From a virus, in IMG/VR virus record IMGVR_UViG_3300031963_000414, positions 1 through 37,700 of that record: a stretch of DNA of 37,700 nucleotides; one strand, given 5' to 3'. Position 1 is the first letter of the stretch. Each line of letters begins with the position of its first letter. Below, one piece after another: positions 1 to 17,968 of this stretch. Under the pieces are notes generated by a model. The model searched no databases and was not told where the DNA came from. It saw nothing but the letters and a program-made list of their open reading frames with translations. Position numbers and translations under genes: made by a program.

Positions 1-92
1 ACTGTTTCGGAGTGGAGGTCATCGGCTAAATTGTGACCTTTAGCTATATTATTACAAATGTCTTTAAATTCACTATTGTAAAATTCCCTCAC
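1..92 (-). CDS. 5' fragment of the sigma-factor-like gene (duplicate of the copy at 37121-37645)
   Basis: The first 30 codons of the sigma-like gene are present here and then run off the window edge. They start with GTG at 90-92, inside the end of the NinG gene. The only difference from the complete copy is codon 24, GAT here and GAC there, both aspartate. This is not an extra gene; it shows that the window ends join. Confidence 0.85.
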   Translation of the reverse strand, partial: MREFYNSEFKDICNNIAKGHNLADDLHSET

Positions 93-147
93 TAAACTTT
101 TTAATTAAGTCCTCCAAAGATAAATAAATTTGTTTACTGCTTAAATT
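1..147. repeat. Terminal direct repeat, left copy (circular-junction overlap)
   Basis: This stretch matches 37554-37700 base for base except at position 21 (A here, G at 37574). The repeat spans the 3' end of the NinG gene and the 5' end of the sigma-like gene, so it sits inside coding sequence rather than in a dedicated terminal region. The simplest reading is that a circular or circularly permuted genome was cut open with 147 bases of overlap. A true short direct terminal repeat is less likely because the two copies differ. Confidence 0.9.
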
Positions 148-444
148 TTTTAACCTGGTTAATTCGTCAAATCGTTCCGTACCTATTTCAGCCTCAAGCT
201 TCAAACCAAACTCGTATTGCCTGCCATAGCTACCAACATTACATCCGTAACATTGGGGTCTAGCGTTATCTTCGTTCCACCTTACCGATTGATGTTTCCT
301 GCTCCAAAAGTGACCGCATTGGATCATTTTAACTTCATATTGTCGTCCGCAAGTGTAACACTCGCAATAACCGTTGTTGCTGAATTTCAACCTAATATAC
401 TTTGAAAATAAAGCATCTAATTTTTTTATGTCTTTTTTGTTCAA
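73..444 (-). CDS. ninG: NinG/Rap-type recombination nuclease
   Basis: The 123-residue protein resembles the lambda NinG (Rap) family, which processes branched recombination intermediates such as Holliday junctions. The N-terminal helix reads KLDALFSKYIRLK, followed by a zinc-binding region with CECYTCG, IQCGHFWSRKH and QCYGCN, the Cys/His layout typical of NinG and HNH-like nucleases. The start codon appears to be TTG at 442-444; no upstream ATG is present and the family fold begins right after it. Its last 20 bases overlap the sigma-like gene once the circle is closed. It probably works with the ERF annealing protein in phage recombination. The family call is firm; the exact substrate is inferred. 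Confidence 0.85.
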   Translation of the reverse strand: MNKKDIKKLDALFSKYIRLKFSNNGYCECYTCGRQYEVKMIQCGHFWSRKHQSVRWNEDNARPQCYGCNVGSYGRQYEFGLKLEAEIGTERFDELTRLKNLSSKQIYLSLEDLIKKFSEGILQ

Positions 445-478
445 ATTTTAACCAATTTAAAGATTAGTTTTTAATCAA

Positions 479-574
479 TAGTTAGGACGGGATTCGAACC
501 CGTGAAGCTCTCGCATGGTTTGCGACTCGGTAACCTCTCCTCCTTATTTTAACACCATATTCCGCCACCTAACT
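479..574 (-). tRNA. tRNA-like gene, unusually long, anticodon unclear
   Basis: On the minus strand a perfect 7-bp acceptor stem (AGTTAGG with CCTAACT) encloses a textbook T arm (ACGGG, loop TTCGAAT, CCCGT). The 5' part, GGTGGCGGAAT, resembles the D arm of leucine tRNAs. The total is 96 nt without an encoded CCA, longer than ordinary class II tRNAs. A hairpin with arms TCGCA and TGCGA follows, but its loop has no U33 and gives no clean anticodon; it may be a long variable arm or an altered anticodon arm. About 20 purine-rich bases between the D arm and this hairpin fit no standard position. It could be a leucine/serine-type tRNA with an insertion, or a decayed tRNA. Confidence 0.6.
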
Positions 575-582
575 ATTTATTA

Positions 583-708
583 TTACTTTTTGAAATATTC
601 AATCAATTCATCTATCTGATCCTTAATCATTAACCCTAAAACATAAACCCAATATCCCAGCAAAATTAGGATTGCCGTTCCAAAAAAGGATATTATTAAA
701 TTTTCCAT
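583..708 (-). CDS. 41-residue single-pass membrane protein
   Basis: This short gene begins ATG at 706-708 and ends TAA at 583-585, just upstream of the tRNA-like gene. The product starts MENLIISFFGTAILILLGYW and continues into a second hydrophobic stretch (VYVLGLMI) before a charged tail rich in Asp, Glu and Lys. That gives one membrane helix at roughly residues 4-27 and a short cytoplasmic tail. It resembles no family I recognise. Position and size would suit a host-interaction or lysis-control peptide, but nothing proves this. The intact frame and tight packing with its neighbours support it as real. Confidence 0.55.
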   Translation of the reverse strand: MENLIISFFGTAILILLGYWVYVLGLMIKDQIDELIEYFKK

Positions 709-721
709 GTTTGCAAAAGTA

Positions 722-865
722 TTACTTTTTTTTATTCCTTAGTTTTTTTAGGTAATTATTTAACGAAGTTAGAAAGTGTTTCCAAAGTATGTACGTGCTA
801 ATTAAACAAGCTGATACTATTACCGCTACAATTAGTAAAGCTATAAGTGATGTTGCTGTTTTCAT
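722..865 (-). CDS. 47-residue single-pass membrane protein
   Basis: The ATG (863-865) overlaps the TGA stop of the upstream gene in an ATGA arrangement, good evidence for translation coupling. The product has a hydrophobic helix at about residues 5-27 (SLIALLIVAVIVSACLISTY and onward) and a strongly basic tail ending in KKLRNKKK, so the tail should face the cytoplasm. A cysteine follows SA in VSAC, but the long preceding helix is not a typical lipoprotein signal. Function is unknown. With the 41-residue gene just downstream it forms a pair of tiny membrane proteins at the end of the replication operon. Confidence 0.6.
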   Translation of the reverse strand: MKTATSLIALLIVAVIVSACLISTYILWKHFLTSLNNYLKKLRNKKK

Positions 866-1056
866 TTGTTTATGTAATCTTTAATATGTTCTAAACTCTT
901 TTTAATTGATTCTATTTTTTGCCTATTGTAACCTAATAAGAAAGCATGAGGTTCTGTTTGTTGTAAATCATTTTCAAACAATTTATGTAATTCAATTGAT
1001 TTTAACAAGTCTGTAATTAAAATCTCAACGGTGTCTAATTTAAAATTGGTCTTCAT
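862..1056 (-). CDS. Hypothetical 64-residue helical protein
   Basis: A small acidic-to-neutral protein with long predicted helices and no cysteines, signal peptide or membrane segment. Its start overlaps the last 17 bases of the primase-helicase gene, and its stop overlaps the start of the next small membrane protein by 4 bases, so it sits in the same transcription unit. I recognise no domain. A role as an accessory factor of replication is suggested only by position. Confidence 0.6.
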   Translation of the reverse strand: MKTNFKLDTVEILITDLLKSIELHKLFENDLQQTEPHAFLLGYNRQKIESIKKSLEHIKDYINK

Positions 1057-2782
1057 TGTATTGGTTTATTATTATGTCGTTTGTGAAATTATGGTTTGGC
1101 TCTATTGTTTGAGTTGGCTTTTTAATCCATGATCCAAATGGGTAGGCTTCGTTTAATTCTTGATACCTGCCGGAGTCTAGTTGATATTGAAACGTACTCA
1201 TTCCGATACCTCCCCAATGGCTAAATTTTACTTTTTGAATATAAACGTGTGTAAGGTTTTGATCGAAGTCACGGTAAACACATAATCCGTTATCAGTTTT
1301 ATTAAAAAAGTTAGCTGATCCGGATATTGAATATAAGTTAGGTACTTCAAATTGTCTCGTCTTATCGTCCTTTTTAATTTTTGTAGGGTGAGCTACTAAA
1401 AAGCAATGAATGTTATTAAACTCACAAAACCTACCTAATTGATCGAGTGCTATTCCAACATACTTAGATTCATTGTCGGTGTATTTATGTTCTAACTTAT
1501 TCCAAGCATCTATAACAAAAAAATCTAGTCCATACCTAGCATGAAGTCGTTTAACGTGAGTAAGTATTGAATCGAGTGTAAAATCATTTTCAGGCTTAAT
1601 AAACCATATTTTTTTATCCAATGCTTCTTTGACTTGGTTTACTTCAAACATAGTCATTCGACCTATACCATTCCACGCTTTACCTGTTATTTTCCTAGCA
1701 AGCTTTGAGAAATGTAATTTTGTAGGTTTATTTTCAGGTGAGTAATAAGCTCCCTTCCAATTATAGTTTACAAATAACCTTAGTATTATTTCATCAAGGA
1801 AATCCGATTTACCGTGGTTTGGTATTCCGGTAATGGTTGTAATGTATCCTTTAACAAACCTAATATACTGATCAAAATTTTTGTGTCCTATTTTTAAACC
1901 TTCATCAAGTCCATTTTGGTAAAGGTCATCTATTTCATTTGAGTAGTCAGATATTGTAAAAGTACCTTCTATGTCAAATTCTTTTGCATCCTGAATAGAC
2001 TCAAGTATTCCCTGTATTCCGTATTTTATTAAACACTCGTTTGCATCCTTGCAATCTTTAAACTCAACCACCTTGCAGCGTTCCTTACCTAACCTTTCGG
2101 ATAGTTCATCTTTAAGTTTACGACCTGGTAAGTCATTGTCTAAACAAAGATAAAATAATGGAGTATTTTGTATGTGATCGGCTACATGGTTTAAGTATTC
2201 TTGGTTTGCGTTTGCTCCGTTTGGTACTGATAAAACATTCTTTTTGCCGGCCTCAAATAAACTTAAAGCATCTATCTCACCTTCAGTAATGAATATAGGT
2301 TCATTAAAGTCTATTAGGTTTAAACCATAAAAAGCAAGCTGCGATCCTTTGTGAAGTTTAAAATGTTTATTACCAGTACGGTATTTAATATTAATTAGTT
2401 GATTATCAACGTCAAAATAATTAAATTGAATAGTATTCATCTCCTTGCCGGCTTGAGGCATAAACTCTAGGCCTTCTGTTATCTTGTAAACTTTTAAGGT
2501 AACTTGTGAAATTTTGCGATCTTCAAACCATTTAACTACTTTATTGCTTAATTCGGTTTTATTTTTCCATTCAGGTTTTATGTAAACCTTTTGCTCCATT
2601 TCTACTTTCAAAAACCCTGACCAGTTGCAATGGTGACATTTCCAAACTTGCTTATCAAGGTTTACGGATAGGCACTTGTCAGACTTCTTTTTTCGGTTCG
2701 GTGAACACTTAGGGCAGGTCGTTTGGTATTCACCGGCTATTTTATTTGATGGTACGTTAATACCGTAGTTTGAGTAGTCCAT
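1040..2782 (-). CDS. Bifunctional DNA primase-helicase
   Basis: This 580-residue protein has the layout of T7 gp4/Twinkle-type replication proteins. An N-terminal zinc ribbon carries Cys23, Cys26, Cys49 and Cys52. A TOPRIM-like primase core follows with EGEIDALSLFEAG and CLDNDLPG. The C-terminal half is a RecA-like DnaB-family helicase with Walker A GIPNHGKS near residue 320 and a Walker B-like strand, DFFVIDAWN. It should prime lagging strands and unwind the fork. The ATG overlaps the stop of the winged-helix initiator gene by one base (TAATG), so the two are translationally coupled. No separate primase, loader or polymerase is visible, so the phage probably relies on the host polymerase. 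Confidence 0.9.
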   Translation of the reverse strand: MDYSNYGINVPSNKIAGEYQTTCPKCSPNRKKKSDKCLSVNLDKQVWKCHHCNWSGFLKVEMEQKVYIKPEWKNKTELSNKVVKWFEDRKISQVTLKVYKITEGLEFMPQAGKEMNTIQFNYFDVDNQLINIKYRTGNKHFKLHKGSQLAFYGLNLIDFNEPIFITEGEIDALSLFEAGKKNVLSVPNGANANQEYLNHVADHIQNTPLFYLCLDNDLPGRKLKDELSERLGKERCKVVEFKDCKDANECLIKYGIQGILESIQDAKEFDIEGTFTISDYSNEIDDLYQNGLDEGLKIGHKNFDQYIRFVKGYITTITGIPNHGKSDFLDEIILRLFVNYNWKGAYYSPENKPTKLHFSKLARKITGKAWNGIGRMTMFEVNQVKEALDKKIWFIKPENDFTLDSILTHVKRLHARYGLDFFVIDAWNKLEHKYTDNESKYVGIALDQLGRFCEFNNIHCFLVAHPTKIKKDDKTRQFEVPNLYSISGSANFFNKTDNGLCVYRDFDQNLTHVYIQKVKFSHWGGIGMSTFQYQLDSGRYQELNEAYPFGSWIKKPTQTIEPNHNFTNDIIINQYNEDQF

Positions 2783-3390
2783 TAGTAAACCATTTGTGAT
2801 TTATTGTTTTGTTCCTTTTCCAACCACTTTTTGCAAGTTAGGTATAAACTAATATAATTTTTATTATTACGGTAATTCTCAATAGAATCTAAAGTACTGT
2901 CGATTTGTTTAATAGTATATTTTTCTTTTAATTTATTTACTTCATCAACAGTAATTGACAAATGATTAAAAGCTCTATAAATATTATTATTATTTTTTTT
3001 ATTAGTACTTGGTTTATTAGTACTTAGTTTATTAGTACTTTGTAGGTGCTGTTTTACCGTTGACGGTTTTACCGTTAACGGTTTTTCAGTAAACGGTATT
3101 TCAGTATACGGTTTATCATAAACAATATGCTCGTATGTAATTTTACCGTTATTATTACTTTTAGTTGATTTAATGTATTTATATTCAGTAAGTTCCTTAA
3201 ATATTTTGTCAAGCTTATCTCTTCCAATATTTAATGAAGCATGCAAAGTAGTTTTATAAATTACCCAATCATGCGGTAAACTTAAAAAATAACTAAGTAA
3301 TCCAACAGCCTCAATACTTAATCCAGAATTAAATATATCGTTTGGAATTACCGTATAATTTTTTACATGTTTTGATTTATAAATTGCCAT
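2782..3390 (-). CDS. Winged-helix replication initiator-like protein
   Basis: The 202-residue product begins with a winged helix-turn-helix domain (about residues 5-95; [18 protein letters not shown] is a typical first helix pair) like those of phage replication-initiation and DnaD-type proteins. A low-complexity linker made of five-residue repeats, P-x-T-E/V-K followed by STNKx, then leads to a helical C-terminal domain. The linker DNA is a set of 15-bp direct repeats, recalling lambda O and similar initiators that carry their own origin inside the gene. It lies directly upstream of the primase-helicase, which it may recruit. The domain call is fairly secure; the initiator role is inferred from context. 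Confidence 0.75.
2999..3043. repeat. Three 15-bp tandem repeats inside the initiator gene
   Basis: The 11-base core TTATTAGTACT recurs at 2999, 3014 and 3029, giving three units with a strict 15-base period. It encodes the STNK-x repeat of the initiator linker. It adjoins a second 15-bp repeat block at 3056-3115. The AT-rich sequence beside it (2980-3000) would be easy to unwind. Confidence 0.8.
3056..3115. repeat. Four 15-bp iterons, probable replication origin
   Basis: Four units of exactly 15 bases start at 3056, 3071, 3086 and 3101. The first two are ACCGTTGACGGTTTT and ACCGTTAACGGTTTT, each containing a CCGTT/AACGG half-palindrome; the next two, TCAGTAAACGGTATT and TCAGTATACGGTTTA, have diverged on one side. 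They encode the pentapeptide P-x-T-E/V-I/K repeat. Tandem iterons inside an initiator gene next to an AT-rich run are the layout of lambda-type origins. Origin function is inferred. Confidence 0.65.
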
Positions 3391-3508
3391 GATTTTTTTT
3401 TAAATAACAAACCCCATCAAATTTTCGGAGTGCAGTCCTACTCATTTAACAGGGTTCAAAGTTTTTTAATTTGTCAGCTTCTGCACAAGCTTTTACAAAA
3501 CTACAAAA
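3391..3508 (-). other. Non-coding gap between the SSB-like and initiator genes
   Basis: These 118 bases hold no convincing gene. On the minus strand a 20-codon stretch continues in frame directly after the TAA of the DUF3127 gene and ends ACAEADKLKNFEPC-stop. It reads like protein but has no start codon, so it may be a relic of a longer gene. An imperfect hairpin AGCTT...AAGCT and T-rich tracts are present. It may serve as a leader for the initiator gene. Confidence 0.4.
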
Positions 3509-3865
3509 TTAAAATGGAATGTCAATATTTTCGTCAGATAAATTTACATTATTTTGTTTTAAAATTTGATTTATTTTATTAGTTGCTTTTTCCATTTCTT
3601 TATCAACATCTTTTATTGAAATATTCCATGCAACTATAGTGTTATAATATTTACCAGCATATTCCCTTCCAGTTAAATTAAATTTAACTCTTATATCATC
3701 ACCAATTTTAAATCTATTTAATTGATTAATATTTTTATTATTAACTTGAAATTGAATTAATTGAGGATAAGTATCATGTGTTTTTATTACAAATTCCTGT
3801 ATTGTAAAATTATCAGTAATTTGTTTTTTTTCATTAATTAAATGAATAGTTCCTGTTGTTTCCAT
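3509..3865 (-). CDS. DUF3127-like OB-fold protein with an SSB-type C-terminal tail
   Basis: The 118-residue protein matches my picture of DUF3127 proteins, small OB-fold-like proteins common in Bacteroidota and their phages and thought to bind single-stranded DNA. It begins TGTIHLINEKKQITDNFTIQ, has a beta-rich core (KIGDDIRVKFNLTGREYAG) and a helical linker. It ends in SDENIDIPF, an acidic stretch plus DIPF, the same tip that bacterial SSB uses to recruit partner proteins. I infer that this is the phage's single-stranded DNA-binding protein. The start overlaps the PAPS-reductase-like gene by 28 bases. Base composition is very AT-rich, like the next two upstream genes. Confidence 0.75.
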   Translation of the reverse strand: METTGTIHLINEKKQITDNFTIQEFVIKTHDTYPQLIQFQVNNKNINQLNRFKIGDDIRVKFNLTGREYAGKYYNTIVAWNISIKDVDKEMEKATNKINQILKQNNVNLSDENIDIPF

Positions 3866-5085
3866 GTGTTTTTATTATTTAAGTTATTATTTAATTTTCT
3901 TTTTTCTTTTATAGATTTCCATTTTTCATATGCTTCAGATTTTGGTTGACTTTGACCTAATCCTTTGCAATAATAGTCATTTCTTAAAATACATCTAGCC
4001 ATTCTTTTCCATGATGGAGCCCAACATTTTATTTCTAAATCATGAGGAGCTTGATCTGGAATTAAATTATAACCTCTTTTTTTCCAACCAACTATAAATT
4101 TTATGAATTTTTCCCTATAATTTTTTTGAGTTTTGACTGGAAGAGATTTTAATAAGTAATTTGTAAATAATTGCCATGTATAATTAGAAGGTTTTGTTAC
4201 ATCATTATAACCATTAATATTTCCTTTTTCTTGAATATATAAACTACCACTATTTACACCGCTAACCCTATTTAATATTTTATACCATGTAGTTGGTTCT
4301 AAAATATGATATAACCACAAACCTCTTTTTTGATCATCACCATAAGGTTGACATAATCTTTGATTACTTAATTTTACTCCAGCCATTGTCATTAAATCAT
4401 AAATTTTATTATGAATTAAATTTTTAAATTTAGAATGAAAAATCCAAATATCTTCCGTTCTCCAATCATAAATAGGATAAATATTATATAAATTTTTAGA
4501 AACTTTTGTAGTCCATTTCCAATTATTTATAGTTAGATTTTTTTTATCTGAAACTATAGCTCTATATCTATGCAAACTTTCATCCGCTCTTATTCCTATA
4601 AATCCAGCAGTTAATTTATCATTTGCATACCATTCACCAAAAATAACCATTAATTCTTCAAATTCCATTTTAGGTATATAAAAATCATATTCTGATAAAT
4701 CATTAGCTTCTTTTGGTTTATTTCTAATCCAAATATCTTTTTTTGATTCATCCCAACATACCCATTTAGGTTCAAAATCACTTACAGCATTTCTTAAAAG
4801 TAATTCACCACAAAACCAATGTAAATCAATATTATCTTTATACATTTCAATCATAGATCTAATATGATTAATTGTATGTTCATATTGAGCTTCTAAATCA
4901 ATTATTAAAATTCCAACTTTAATATTTCTTTTTTTAGCTTCATCCATTACCATGTGCATCATTACTGTACTATCCTTACCACCTGAAAAACTTATATAAA
5001 ATTTTTCAAAAGTGTCAAAAGTTTTTGAAATTCTTTCTTTAGTAGCTTCAAAAACATTTTTATTAATATATTTTTTTATAGCCAT
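3838..5085 (-). CDS. PAPS-reductase-like protein, IbrA type
   Basis: This 415-residue protein carries the PP-loop ATP-pyrophosphatase motif SGGKDST at residues 34-40, as in phosphoadenylylsulfate reductases, sulfate adenylyltransferase subunit 2 and DndC. The downstream architecture, with GIRADESLHRYRA and a DUF3440-like C-terminal half (KRMARCILRNDYYCKGLG), is that of IbrA-type proteins found beside ParB-like IbrB in enterobacterial prophages. Its upstream neighbour, one base away, is such a ParB-like gene. The family chemistry is adenylation of a substrate; the substrate here is unknown. True sulfate assimilation is unlikely in a phage, and nucleic-acid modification or gene regulation are the alternatives. 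The gene is extremely AT-rich (one 60-base line near 4441 has 13 G+C) compared with the Gp157 gene nearby. Confidence 0.8.
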   Translation of the reverse strand: MAIKKYINKNVFEATKERISKTFDTFEKFYISFSGGKDSTVMMHMVMDEAKKRNIKVGILIIDLEAQYEHTINHIRSMIEMYKDNIDLHWFCGELLLRNAVSDFEPKWVCWDESKKDIWIRNKPKEANDLSEYDFYIPKMEFEELMVIFGEWYANDKLTAGFIGIRADESLHRYRAIVSDKKNLTINNWKWTTKVSKNLYNIYPIYDWRTEDIWIFHSKFKNLIHNKIYDLMTMAGVKLSNQRLCQPYGDDQKRGLWLYHILEPTTWYKILNRVSGVNSGSLYIQEKGNINGYNDVTKPSNYTWQLFTNYLLKSLPVKTQKNYREKFIKFIVGWKKRGYNLIPDQAPHDLEIKCWAPSWKRMARCILRNDYYCKGLGQSQPKSEAYEKWKSIKEKRKLNNNLNNKNTWKQQELFI

Positions 5086-5086
5086 T

Positions 5087-6226
5087 TTAATATAGTTCTA
5101 CTTGTCTATTAATACTTAATGCTTGATCCATTGTTAATTCATTTCTATTATTATTTTTTAGCCAAATATTTAAATATTTTAATGCTAATTCATTTGCTTT
5201 TATTTGTTCTTCTTGAGATAATAAATTAAAACCTGAACAAAATATAGAAGGGATACCGGCATGTAAACACACTGATGCTTGTCCTAACCATGCTATTCTA
5301 TTCATAGATTTATTAGTCAAATAATGTTCGCATGAAAATTTCCATTCATTAATTACTTTATTTAATACATTTTCAAATAAATTTAAATCTCTTAAAAAAT
5401 TAGCATAAAAAAATTCACATTGTTCTTTTGTCATACCTTCTTTTTTACTTGAATAAAATCCTGCTTTATGGCATTCCCATTTATCATAAGTGTGATAAAT
5501 TCTATCTTTATCATTTTCATTTGGTATTTTAAATTCATTCATGAATTCTTCATTTATGTCATCAGATATTTCTTCAAAATTATCTACGTAATCAGATGAT
5601 TCCCATGCAGATGAAAAATCATTATCATTAAATATATTTTCTAATCCTGAAATTTGACATAGTCTTAAAACTTCTTCTTCATCCATTCCAAGTTGTTTAG
5701 CAATTCTTTGATTAGTCCAATTTCTATTTTTTAATTCAATTACTATTTCACTCATTGCATTTATTTGATGCTTACCTCTAGCTCTATTATGTCTAATAGT
5801 TGATGCTATCCTGTCATTTTTATCAGATTGTTCTTTTCTAATAGTTACAATTGGTAAAAAATTCATGATTCTTTGATTAATTATCTTTGATTCTTTACCT
5901 ACTCTATTTCTATGGAATCCGTCAATAACTTCAACTTTATTTTTATCAGGATTATCCCATGTTACAATTGGTTGAGTATATCCATCGTTTAAAATAGATA
6001 TTTCAAGCAATTCCATTTCAGGTGGAGCTACTTTATTAGGGTTATAATCGTTAGATGTTACATTTGTTGAAACTTCCCATTTAACATAATCAATTGGTTC
6101 ATTTTTTAGTGGACTTAATAAATGAATTTGGTATCTTAAATCGTTTATATATTTAATTTTATCAATATCATTTAAATTTTGTAAATCATTATTTAATAAT
6201 TCAGTTATTTTATTTAAATTTTCCAT
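5087..6226 (-). CDS. ParB-like nuclease-domain protein, IbrB type
   Basis: The 379-residue protein has a ParB/Srx-fold N-terminal region with the signature VIDGFHRNRVGKES, preceded by the strand that positions target specificity (ILNDGYTQPIVTW). It is followed by a basic stretch (STIRHNRARGKH) and a helix-turn-helix (NQRIAKQLGMDEEEVLRLCQ). This is the IbrB-like partner of the PAPS-reductase-like gene one base downstream. In ParB-fold proteins the GxxR box binds nucleotide. As a pair they may form a complex that modifies or regulates nucleic acid; that role is inference. Composition is very AT-rich and differs sharply from the Gp157 gene directly upstream, which suggests separate acquisition. 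Confidence 0.8.
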   Translation of the reverse strand: MENLNKITELLNNDLQNLNDIDKIKYINDLRYQIHLLSPLKNEPIDYVKWEVSTNVTSNDYNPNKVAPPEMELLEISILNDGYTQPIVTWDNPDKNKVEVIDGFHRNRVGKESKIINQRIMNFLPIVTIRKEQSDKNDRIASTIRHNRARGKHQINAMSEIVIELKNRNWTNQRIAKQLGMDEEEVLRLCQISGLENIFNDNDFSSAWESSDYVDNFEEISDDINEEFMNEFKIPNENDKDRIYHTYDKWECHKAGFYSSKKEGMTKEQCEFFYANFLRDLNLFENVLNKVINEWKFSCEHYLTNKSMNRIAWLGQASVCLHAGIPSIFCSGFNLLSQEEQIKANELALKYLNIWLKNNNRNELTMDQALSINRQVELY

Positions 6227-6717: not shown

Positions 6718-7299
6718 TTATTTGTTTTTTATGATTTGTTCAAAGAAAAATATTTGAGCTTCGTTTAGTTTGTACTTCTTTTGCACTTGTTCAATAGTAC
6801 CGCCTTCTTTAAGGAATTTCTCAACATCGGCAGCTTTTGATTGTGGTAATTCGGGTAAGTCTTTTTTAGGTTGTTCTTTTGTTTCTGTTTTTTTGTTTTC
6901 ATGGTCAGGATCGGACTCTGTTTCATCAATTAGGAATAAACCATTTAAAGCGTATTTACGTGCGTAGCTTGATGCTGTGCCAGTACATTGTTCACTACTC
7001 ATGCCTTTGTGTTCTCCCATTTCAGCAAAGCCAAATATTTCTAATTGGGTAGTTTGGTTGGCAAGGTTTGCAGTAGCTTTTAAAAATAACTTATTACCTA
7101 TTGGTACGATGTCATCAGTCATTGTCAAAACAACATTGTATTTTTTAAGTAATGGTTTAACAGCTTCGAGAATATCCTCGGCTGAACGGTATTTGTATTT
7201 ACCAAATGAATTGTAATTACCCTTAGGTACTTTTAGCTCTGATTGAATTGCAATAAGACTTTCTGAAAGACTAAATTGCTTTGTGTTTGATTTTTCCAT
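6718..7299 (-). CDS. erf: ERF-family single-strand annealing protein
   Basis: This 193-residue protein matches the ERF family (Essential Recombination Function, after phage P22), which anneals complementary single strands. The diagnostic core is present: YRSAEDILEAVKPLLKKY, then a beta hairpin region, then GMSSEQCTGTASSYARKYAL with the GTASSYARKYAL signature and LFLIDETESDPD. The C-terminal part is a charged linker and a small helical module. It is the first gene after a predicted promoter at 7315-7346, so it probably leads the replication and recombination operon running down to about 583. NinG and the SSB-like protein are its likely partners. Confidence 0.9.
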   Translation of the reverse strand: MEKSNTKQFSLSESLIAIQSELKVPKGNYNSFGKYKYRSAEDILEAVKPLLKKYNVVLTMTDDIVPIGNKLFLKATANLANQTTQLEIFGFAEMGEHKGMSSEQCTGTASSYARKYALNGLFLIDETESDPDHENKKTETKEQPKKDLPELPQSKAADVEKFLKEGGTIEQVQKKYKLNEAQIFFFEQIIKNK

Positions 7300-7417: not shown

Positions 7418-7432
7418 CGCATAGTTTATGCG
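7418..7432. repeat. Short hairpin beyond the cassette boundary
   Basis: CGCATA and TATGCG form a perfect 6-bp stem with a 3-base loop, 11 bases outside the left core site of the cassette. There is no U-run, so it is not an intrinsic terminator. It lies in the otherwise empty 145-base gap between the methyltransferase and ERF genes and could be the remnant of a neighbouring attC. Confidence 0.4.
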
Positions 7433-7444
7433 GGTATAAAGTAG

Positions 7445-8131
7445 TTAGGCGTAATGGCTACGATAAGTTTCCATAAGATAATTTCCCCATTGACTTGACA
7501 TAGCTTGTGCAATGCCTGGAAATGTTTTTGACCTTACCTTGCTTCGTTCATCGCCTTTTAAACTCCTTGCTTCTTTAAACCATAATGGTTGCCTTTTTTT
7601 CTTTCCGGTCTTGCTATCAATCCATTCAAAAAACTCTCCTTTCTCTGTATGTGTTACCACATCATCAAATAAATTAGGTGCTGCATTGTGGTATAATCCT
7701 GGTAAATTTTTCAACCAAAGGCAAGTTGTTTTTTGCGCCTTATCGCCAAAATAATACGGTTGAATTACTTGTGTTGGTGGCATATAAATTTTGCTCATTA
7801 TTCCTACTGGGTTTTCTATTGCTATATGTTTTATTTTGGCTTTTGCAATCGCTAAAAAAAAGTCAATCCCTTGTTGCTGTCTGCCATCTTTTCGCTTTTG
7901 TTCAAACCAAGCTGCACCACTCACAGCTAAATGTGTGCAAGGCGGAAAGGCTATCATAGCATCCCAATTATCATCTATAATGTCAAAAACATTTCCTTGA
8001 TAATGCTTTGCGTTAGGGTTTCTGTTTTCTTGCAAATCGCAACTCCAAGCATCAAATCCCATTGCTTCAAATCTACCTCTAACTTCATCGCTTTCCTCAC
8101 AAGCTATTAAAATTCTTATTCCGTTTTCCAT
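7445..8131 (-). CDS. DNA methyltransferase (probable cytosine type)
   Basis: The 228-residue protein opens with IRILIACEESDEVRGRFEA, a typical AdoMet-binding first strand and loop, followed by an acidic end to the second strand (AWSCDL). It has PPC at residues 63-65 (AFPPCTHLAVSGAAWF) and ENP at 106-108, the positions of the catalytic cysteine motif and the ENV motif of C5-cytosine methyltransferases. Small phage proteins of this form are often labelled DNA cytosine methyltransferase. Short length implies a minimal target-recognition region. It may protect phage DNA from restriction. It stands alone between a hairpin-rich attC-like element upstream and a short non-coding stretch downstream, and looks like an inserted module. 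Confidence 0.75.
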   Translation of the reverse strand: MENGIRILIACEESDEVRGRFEAMGFDAWSCDLQENRNPNAKHYQGNVFDIIDDNWDAMIAFPPCTHLAVSGAAWFEQKRKDGRQQQGIDFFLAIAKAKIKHIAIENPVGIMSKIYMPPTQVIQPYYFGDKAQKTTCLWLKNLPGLYHNAAPNLFDDVVTHTEKGEFFEWIDSKTGKKKRQPLWFKEARSLKGDERSKVRSKTFPGIAQAMSSQWGNYLMETYRSHYA

Positions 8132-8164
8132 ATTTAATTTATCGTTTAATTAACCGCCACATAC

Positions 8165-8250
8165 GCCTAACAGCACATAAGCAAAAGCCCAAATCCAACC
8201 GCACAAAGCCACCGCTATTTGTGCCTTCGCTTATCTGCAAAAAGTTAGCT
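8165..8250 (+). mobile_element. attC-like recombination site
   Basis: On the plus strand GCCTAAC (8165-8171, fits RYYYAAC) and GTTAGCT (8244-8250, one base off GTTRRRY) form the outer arms. Inside them GCACATAAGC pairs with GCTTATCTGC with one mismatch, and further in GCACAAA pairs with TTTGTGC around a 10-base loop. Unpaired bases lie mostly on one side. This nested, imperfectly paired layout of 86 bases is what integron attC sites look like. The hairpins could alternatively act only as an RNA structure after the upstream gene, whose stop codon overlaps the right end. Confidence 0.5.
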
Positions 8251-8551
8251 ACCTATCCCACTTGTAAGGTGTCAAAGCTTTGTAAGTACTGTAAATTGAT
8301 CCTAGCTCGTTTACCCTCCTCCTCCAAAAGAATTTTTCTATTCCGTTCGTTTCTTCGTGCATATCAATAGCGTTAAAAAATAACTTTTCAATTTTACGGA
8401 TGTACTCTAAATTCATTACATCACTTTTCACATTGTACTTAGCCATGATCTTATCAAGGTTGTTAGTGTACTGATCGTTTGTTAACTCACCTTGTATCTC
8501 CTTGCGTGACTTACCGGCAAGGATTAACTGTTCCATTTCGTTTATTGTCAT
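8249..8551 (-). CDS. Hypothetical 100-residue protein
   Basis: The start is placed at ATG 8549-8551, which overlaps the TGA of the preceding small gene as ATGA; a longer frame to 8614 exists but its extra residues run through that neighbour in another frame. The product (MTINEMEQLILAGKSRKEIQ onward) has an N-terminal helix pair that could be a small helix-turn-helix (GKSRKEIQGELTNDQY) and a basic C-terminal half with FFWRRRVNELG. No family is recognised. It is the last gene before the cassette-like methyltransferase, and its stop codon overlaps the attC-like element. Confidence 0.65.
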   Translation of the reverse strand: MTINEMEQLILAGKSRKEIQGELTNDQYTNNLDKIMAKYNVKSDVMNLEYIRKIEKLFFNAIDMHEETNGIEKFFWRRRVNELGSIYSTYKALTPYKWDR

Positions 8552-8721
8552 TGCATTAATTTTTTTAAGTAAATAGCTAGATCTAAAGCTTCTTCGTAAG
8601 CATGCTGTAACCATTCATTTTGTGATAAGTCAGAACGATCAACAGTAGTTCCGTATTCCTTTAAACCTTTTTCTTCTCTTTGTTTTAAGTCGTTAATGAC
8701 TTGTTCTAAAATTTGACTCAT
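8548..8721 (-). CDS. Small MazG-like / phage nucleotide pyrophosphohydrolase-like protein
   Basis: This 57-residue gene runs from ATG at 8719-8721 to TGA at 8548-8550, fitting exactly between its neighbours (one base after the previous stop, ATGA overlap with the next start). The product contains WLQHAYEEALDLAIYLKKLM, a signature helix of phage dATP/dGTP pyrophosphohydrolase-like proteins related to MazG, where the Glu/Glu/Asp residues bind metal. Those enzymes are usually longer and carry a second metal-binding helix, so this version may be minimal, may act as an oligomer, or may have lost activity. Nucleotide-pool cleaning is the family role; activity here is uncertain. Confidence 0.7.
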   Translation of the reverse strand: MSQILEQVINDLKQREEKGLKEYGTTVDRSDLSQNEWLQHAYEEALDLAIYLKKLMQ

Positions 8722-16171: not shown

Positions 16172-17968
16172 TTATTTTTTTCTTACTACTCTTTGCAACC
16201 AAGCATGTCTGCAATAGTCTCTTGTTATGTCCGTACCTTTTTGTCTCCAATAACCTCCGCGATGTTCCCAAACATCCCATCCTACTTCTGCGCTAATTGA
16301 GTTAATGTCCTCACGTGAGTAAAGTAAATTAGCTTTAACTAATTCTTCACAAAATGGTCGGCTACTTTTTAAAAGTATCGCACCACTTACAGACGGATTA
16401 AGTCCGTATGAATACATTACCTCAACCTTACTAACTGGCTTTTCTTCTAATATAGTTTCAGCCTTTTCAGTTATCACTCTATTCTCACCTTCTAACTCAA
16501 TAGCCCCATCGTCAATCATTTTACTTAAAGCCTTTTCAACCGCTTCGACTTCCATCTTCAAAGCCTTTGCAATTTCTTTAGCTTCTAAACTAGGCGACTC
16601 TTTTAATATCTCTAAAATTTGTTTCCACTTTTTACGATAGTCTTCAGCAAATAAGTCATTTACAAATTCGTAAGTATCGGCAGCCTTACCGTACTTTTTA
16701 AATACGTCAAGTGCTTTTAACTCACTTTCATTAATACTAAACTTAGTTGAATCAGCTTCTTCTTGAATAGGCTTATAACCTGCCATTTCTCTAAGCTCAT
16801 TCTTAGTTAAGATTTGAACTAAAGTATTTTCAGTTAACTGATTTGTGATAGGCTCAACTTCTTTAAGCTTTATTTTAACTGGACTTCTTTTATATTCAAA
16901 TAGCTTATTAAAGAATTTTTCAATCTCTAATTGGTGTGGATCAACGTAAACGTTTTTGAATAGCTCGTAGGCTTCAATCAATTCATTCCTACCACCTAAT
17001 TGCCCTGCAGTCTTTACACCCATTAACATAGGGTTAACTACCTTATGTCCGATGAATAACTCCTCTTGAACCGTCTTATTTAAAATATCAAACTGCTTGT
17101 CAAAGTCAGTAGCTTGTAACCTTTCAACACTTGGCGCATTCTCCTTAGTTTGGTTAAACATAACCAATAAAGAGTTAGCAGCATCCGTGCCTGTATATTG
17201 GTTTTGTAGCTTGTCGTAAATATCTTGCTTTTCTTCTTCCGTAGGTCTGCCGTTATTAAAGCTTACAATAGTACCGGCATTGAAATTACTTTTAATACCA
17301 TTAAGCCAAAAGTTAGAAATTTCATATTCCATTTCGGCATAAGGAATAGCACTCACGTATTCAGGTAAAGGATAGTATTTAATACCTGGACGATACATTT
17401 TAGAACACATTACCTGCCTACCTGTTCCGTTTTCAGGATCAAATTTAGGGATATATTCTAACTTTGTTTTTTCCTCACTTTGTACCGTTTGCGACCAATC
17501 ATTCGAATACCAATAACCTTCTTCGCTCTTATCCATACGGATTGAATTATAATCCATGTGGTAGTATTCAAAATCATTTCCGGCCTTATTCCAAATGATC
17601 TCCAAATAATAACCTCCGTAAATAAGACGATCCATCGTACACTTATAAACAATATCCGAAATAGTCTCACCGTATTTATTGGCTTGTTTTAAATAGTCTA
17701 ATCTAATTGAGCGACTTGTGGTATTCGTTCCTTCGTCCTTTACAGTAACCCCATTTCCCGCGATATAAAAGGCTTTTGAGGTAACAATAGCGTTATGCTT
17801 GCTTGATCGGTTAAATAGCTTTAAAAGGTAGCCAGGATAGTTATTTTTATATTCTTTGTCATCCGCACCGTAAATGATCCAATCCTTATTTTTTTCTTCT
17901 TTAAATACAGGTACTTTTGAAGCGTTAAACTTCAATACCATTAACATATTATTAAGCCCCTGCTCCAT
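16172..17968 (-). CDS. Portal protein with internal winged-helix-like and C-terminal extra domains
   Basis: The 598-residue protein has a phage portal core in its first 440 residues: GYLLKLFNRSSKHNAIVTSK, the long crown and clip region, and the late helix with GGRNELIEAYELFKNVYVDP. Residues 446-507 look like a winged helix-turn-helix (ILKESPSLEAKEIAKALKME, AVEKALSKMIDDGAIEL). The last 75 residues form another module with RPFCEELVKANLLYSREDIN, EHRGGYWR and CRHAWLQRVVRKK, similar to the C-terminal piece of MuF-type minor capsid proteins. Portals form the dodecameric gate for DNA packaging. The extra domains may grip DNA or couple to a minor head protein that is otherwise missing here. The start overlaps the upstream gene by 17 bases. 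Confidence 0.8.
   Translation of the reverse strand: MEQGLNNMLMVLKFNASKVPVFKEEKNKDWIIYGADDKEYKNNYPGYLLKLFNRSSKHNAIVTSKAFYIAGNGVTVKDEGTNTTSRSIRLDYLKQANKYGETISDIVYKCTMDRLIYGGYYLEIIWNKAGNDFEYYHMDYNSIRMDKSEEGYWYSNDWSQTVQSEEKTKLEYIPKFDPENGTGRQVMCSKMYRPGIKYYPLPEYVSAIPYAEMEYEISNFWLNGIKSNFNAGTIVSFNNGRPTEEEKQDIYDKLQNQYTGTDAANSLLVMFNQTKENAPSVERLQATDFDKQFDILNKTVQEELFIGHKVVNPMLMGVKTAGQLGGRNELIEAYELFKNVYVDPHQLEIEKFFNKLFEYKRSPVKIKLKEVEPITNQLTENTLVQILTKNELREMAGYKPIQEEADSTKFSINESELKALDVFKKYGKAADTYEFVNDLFAEDYRKKWKQILEILKESPSLEAKEIAKALKMEVEAVEKALSKMIDDGAIELEGENRVITEKAETILEEKPVSKVEVMYSYGLNPSVSGAILLKSSRPFCEELVKANLLYSREDINSISAEVGWDVWEHRGGYWRQKGTDITRDYCRHAWLQRVVRKK

Follow-up and report, generated by a model that had tools for sequence, protein, structure and literature searches.

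A methyltransferase gene in a cassette-like unit

The window, that is, the whole stretch of DNA analyzed (positions 1–37,700 of the IMG/VR virus record IMGVR_UViG_3300031963_000414), is a 37.7-kb virus contig that encodes a terminase, a portal protein and further phage genes. A gene for a compact DNA methyltransferase of 228 amino acids (7445–8131, minus strand) sits in it between an unnamed phage gene (8249–8614) and a gene for an Erf-like single-strand annealing protein (6718–7299; PF04404, E 6e-34), both also on the minus strand. The enzyme matches the PHROG 757 DNA methyltransferases (E 1e-58), a family of small stand-alone enzymes present in many phages, and nothing was found for it in Pfam, NCBIfam or PDB sequence searches. 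The methyltransferase motifs PPC and ENP are invariant, and the structure model (pLDDT 73) gave DNMT1 and DNMT2 as weak top matches in the PDB (TM 0.3–0.4). Family, motifs and weak fold match suggest that the cargo is probably a small C5-cytosine DNA methyltransferase, which may plausibly shield the phage DNA from host restriction. Elsewhere in the window, a PAPS-reductase/DUF3440 gene lies beside a ParB-like gene, forming an IbrA/IbrB-like pair (3838–6226), and the C-terminal part (446–499) of the portal protein (16172–17968) matches MarR-type and Ren-like families.

The methyltransferase gene fills most of a predicted excisable cassette of 800 bp (7445–8244). On the plus strand, the unit is opened by a core site, GTTAGGC (7444–7450), which contains the stop codon of the gene, and closed by an attC-like site (8165–8250), identified by folding, a covariance model (R1) and a generic hairpin scan. 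Between the gene and this site lies the 5' leader of the gene (8132–8161, minus strand). The attC-like site consists of the core GCCTAAC (8165–8171), a 1-nt spacer, one hairpin arm (GCACATAAGC, 8173–8182), a loop, the second arm (GCTTATCTGC, 8229–8238), a 5-nt spacer and the outer right core GTTAGCT (8244–8250). A first-pass annotation, made from the sequence alone, had described an integron-cassette-like unit bracketed by a 10-bp inverted repeat, with an opening GTTRRRY core, an RYYYAAC core and a closing hairpin, and all of these elements are present in the window sequence, the repeat being GTTAGGCGTA (7444–7453) and TACGCCTAAC (8162–8171). The outer GTTRRRY core, which it called almost perfect, has one mismatch; otherwise, the cores and the complementary ends are those of an integron gene cassette. 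Immediately to the left of 7444, on the erf side, we found a feature that the annotation had lacked, a 26-bp attI-like site (TAGTTTATGCGGGTATAAAGTAG|TTA, 7422–7447, plus strand). The attI profiles described below place the predicted crossover between 7444 (G) and 7445 (T), the G|TT position at which cassettes enter an attI; the crossover itself is deduced from the TAAC junctions.

Folding of the bottom strand, which had been proposed as a check, gave the expected result. The minus (gene) strand folds better, with −16.6 kcal/mol (z −3.8, matched by none of 200 shuffles), as compared with −10.6 kcal/mol (z −1.9) for the plus strand. The site thus forms a single-strand hairpin in silico, as attC sites do, with spacers of 1 and 5 nt in contrast to the 5 and 6 nt of the R388 attC. 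The covariance model matched 8168–8247 with 102 bits, a score that is not independent because the window copy is part of the model, and the generic hairpin scan gave 13.9. The hairpin had no match in Rfam. Taken by itself, the 10-bp inverted repeat has no significance, as the window contains 122 perfect repeats of this kind spaced 300–1500 nt apart. The significance of the unit comes from comparison with other loci, namely from exact boundaries in unrelated phages, complementary cassette ends and exact junctions.

In a canonical array the genes read away from attI and each attC follows its gene, whereas the window gene is antisense. An assignment of the hairpin to the upstream neighbor was dropped, since array starts, the attI position and the folding strand fit the opposite orientation. 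A transposon or an IS200/IS605-type end was likewise rejected, as the units contain differing genes, have complementary ends that also vary, and lack a transposase.

Recurrence of the cassette and its hairpin in other viruses

The closest homologues of the enzyme are encoded in two unrelated phages, L003 (97% identical protein) and L004 (96%). The cassette DNA, including the leader, is conserved in both at 92–94% identity, and apart from a few bases this identity begins and ends at the core sites, the left end of the alignment falling on the core at 7444–7450. The same unit thus lies between unrelated flanks in three phages. In L003, a change in one core is matched in the other (GTTATGCG and CGCATAAC). 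A second cassette precedes this unit in L003, and in a close relative, L135, different cassettes occupy the same place. Only these closest homologues of the window enzyme are cassette-borne; the more distant PHROG 757 members examined (94% identity or less) lack cores and are ordinary genes within the usual gene order of phages. Searches of GenBank phage records returned no DNA-level relative of the cassette or the hairpin. A phage with the same cassette (L134) encodes a Mom-like-looking protein beside a ParB-like gene (2627–3475).

Relatives without the cassette were also found. In the sister phages L175–L178, the two flanking genes, erf and a homologue 53% identical to the product of 8249–8614, are 86 nt apart with no cassette between them. 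The search for an empty site in related phages was in this respect successful; the gene order fits, but the sequence has diverged too far to give the exact junction. In L258, the same phage from a different sample, the contig breaks exactly at the insertion point (..CTAACG), as variable cassette content would cause. These data indicate that the methyltransferase cassette is a mobile unit.

The exact pattern of one hairpin arm occurred in 92 viral stretches, of which about 85 are real copies, as against 2 of 11.3 million GTDB contigs, and hardly any of 85,000 host genomes contain this attC type. Integrase genes are missing from nearly all of the hairpin-bearing records, and the claim that the window record has none was confirmed. 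At 46 of 61 testable sites, the cassette start (the first 9 or more bases) recurs as its reverse complement about 250–1350 nt further on (control 4.2%), and in integrase-bearing phages a complementary cassette end was found at 157 of 220 sites (control 6.6%). Twenty-two locus pairs are alike up to TAAC and unrelated beyond, which places the crossover at TAA|C, or G|TTA on the other strand; G|TT is the integron crossover. Altogether, 331 observed cassettes fell into 264 families, several of which are common to phages with and without an integrase. The annotation had named one finding as refuting, the hairpin lying next to unrelated genes with no cores; the neighbors do differ from phage to phage, and the cores are present. 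With cores, exact boundaries in unrelated phages and complementary ends, a discrete cassette-like unit, as originally proposed, is well supported.

Gene direction was then related to the 5/1 spacer asymmetry of the hairpin. The ratio was 58:3 in hosts and 2:107 in phages (Fisher p 4e-39). The gene does run against the cassette direction, as had been stated, but this orientation, which had been called uncommon, is the rule in these phages (107/109). Since the hairpin scanner selects for complementarity, site counts are soft; the results on orientation, side and cassette ends are independent of that selection.

Integrases and attI sites linked to the arrays

In two of the viral contigs with the hairpin, L138 and L147, the array is followed directly by a gene for a tyrosine recombinase of 265 or 277 amino acids. 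Relatives of the L138 enzyme were present in 84 viral stretches, many of them in phages of more than 100 kb. Among 74 viral integrase loci scanned, 59 had attC-like sites upstream, with 205 sites upstream and 1 downstream, and 203 of the 205 share one orientation. The density of upstream sites was 0.50/kb, as compared to 0.017/kb in control phage loci, and a conserved TAACTATTATATATA lies just ahead of the phage integrase gene. In addition, a 246-kb viral record (L164) has about ten attC-like sites within 5 kb (1–4984) and two tyrosine recombinases elsewhere in the phage.

A Bacteroidota MAG (G051) gave 27 matches to the covariance model, and 58 of the 87 genomes of its family have matches, often as chromosomal clusters; the designation of this family as host derives from two MAG contigs. 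A tyrosine recombinase of about 380 amino acids (360–390) adjoins the host arrays and was found in 55 of the 87 genomes. In 23 host integrase regions, all 26 attC-like sites lay downstream and none upstream in 187 kb, with many contigs ending a few hundred bases downstream, and a conserved attI (AnTTTATnGCGnnTATAAGnTAG|TTA) was located about 90 nt past the integrase stop codon. A contig of 3.3 kb (L255, 1–3258), assigned by binning to a Chitinophagales MAG, carries a small array of cassettes, the cargo of which includes an HNH-like gene, beside genes that may be of phage origin.

We found that the window site ranks first among 515 GTTA sites on an attI profile built from 19 host integrase-linked sites (19.6 versus 12.8 for the next), and second among the 515 on an independent profile from 44 phage integrase-linked sites, the host profile fitting better. 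Among other integrase-less phage insertions, 16 of 25 fall within the top 2% on the host profile.

An integron integrase is defined by the IntI-specific insertion near patch III (PMC9668308). The linked phage and host integrases keep the catalytic residues, lack this insertion and score under the IntI family cut-off. In the integrase tree, IntI is set apart, and the phage and host forms are joined with moderate support only. An IntI-type integrase was detected in 1 of the 87 family genomes (L325; 443 bits, with an in-frame TGA), and no attC-like site lies near it on its short piece.

Origin of the cassette and relation to integrons

The comparison of loci thus shows that the unit boundaries are exact, that exchange occurs at TAA|C, that relatives without the cassette exist, that a cassette pool is common to different phages, that the attI sites are similar and that, elsewhere, integrases are linked to arrays. 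We consider it very likely that the window contains a one-cassette, integrase-less integron-like locus, consisting of an attI-like site, a reversed methyltransferase cassette and an attC, which would have been filled by a recombinase acting in trans. We infer that recombination takes place between a circular cassette and the G|TT of the attI-like site, with the gene strand in single-stranded form as the presumable substrate. The reaction would be catalyzed by enzymes of the linked type, supplied either by the host, relatives of which carry a version of 360–390 amino acids together with attI and arrays, or by a co-infecting phage encoding the 265–277-amino-acid version. In this orientation the methyltransferase gene is transcribed together with the surrounding phage genes, and this may be the reason for the opposite gene direction in phage and host cassettes.

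The first-pass annotation had instead favored capture from a host integron. An ordinary IntI-type cassette taken from a host chromosomal integron would account for the attC-like fold and the cores; the P12002L_attC2 site of a Bacteroidota phage was recombined by IntI1 (PMC9892861), and one family genome does carry an IntI gene. Nevertheless, the host family has almost no IntI even though two-thirds of its genomes (58/87) have attC matches, the integrases linked to the arrays lack the IntI insertion, and the hairpin is almost exclusively viral (about 85 viral contigs against the two in GTDB). Moreover, host arrays of the same class carry their genes in the opposite direction, and the cassette pool is common to phages that encode their own integrase beside the array. 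Simple capture from a host integron is not borne out by these data, and we regard an IntI-type origin as improbable. Still less probable is phage mosaicism, in which the unit would have been moved without a site-specific recombinase, either by phage annealing proteins or by homologous recombination at the conserved hairpins. The hairpins are indeed conserved, phages are mosaic and the window cassette adjoins erf, but the junctions are exact although the flanks share no homology beyond TAAC, both cassette ends covary, and the arrays flank an integrase and its conserved attI on one side. It is highly unlikely that the hairpin represents a terminator or an intergenic repeat that resembles cores by chance, for although the 10-bp repeat by itself is not unusual, this reading is contradicted by the exact boundaries, complementary ends and TAAC junctions, and Rfam gave no match.

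Integrons are regarded as bacterial platforms defined by IntI. With the chromosomal integrons of this kind, e.g., those of Vibrio and Treponema, the system described here shares an integrase, attI, attC arrays, complementary cassette ends and the G|TT junction. It behaves as an integron does, yet falls outside the IntI definition, as the window has no integrase and the linked integrases elsewhere, in which the IntI insertion was tested for, lack it; it is thus not a member of the IntI integrons. In Treponema, the integrase points toward attI (PMC3607928), as in most of the host loci here. According to the comparison, many such viruses have in common with their likely hosts what appears to be a little-described integron-like machinery, sometimes with its own recombinase, by which genes would be traded between otherwise unrelated viruses. 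We think it likely that Bacteroidota and their phages have a separate class of integron, characterized by a Xer-like integrase that lacks the IntI insertion, by attI and attC types of its own, and by a pool of reversed phage cassettes that phages with and without an integrase exchange. In a literature search with most subscription papers and preprints outside its reach, neither a non-IntI class nor a reversed phage pool was found described. If this is correct, viruses run their own gene-capture system with a different recombinase, gathering small anti-defence and other genes, and search tools that require IntI would miss such systems. The origin of new cassettes, the need for the IntI insertion in single-strand attC recombination, and the way in which gene direction keeps host and phage pools apart would become testable questions.

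Phage cassettes with methyltransferases, among others in Polaribacter phage P12002L, are already known from Qi et al. 2023 (PMC9892861), where some were also tested with IntI1. Those phage CALINs and cassettes likewise comprise integrase-less attC-like sites in Bacteroidota phages with methyltransferase cargo. A CALIN has at least two attC sites without an integrase, whereas the window has one attC; L003 has two. That survey dealt with clusters of at least two attC and with IntI-type integrases (PMC9892861). Here, in contrast, we found a near-uniform attC family across unrelated phages, in which the gene direction is as a rule reversed, and in many phages the arrays are linked to an attI and an integrase of non-IntI type. 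In our own scan, the P12002L sites showed the same spacer asymmetry and gene direction as the window family.
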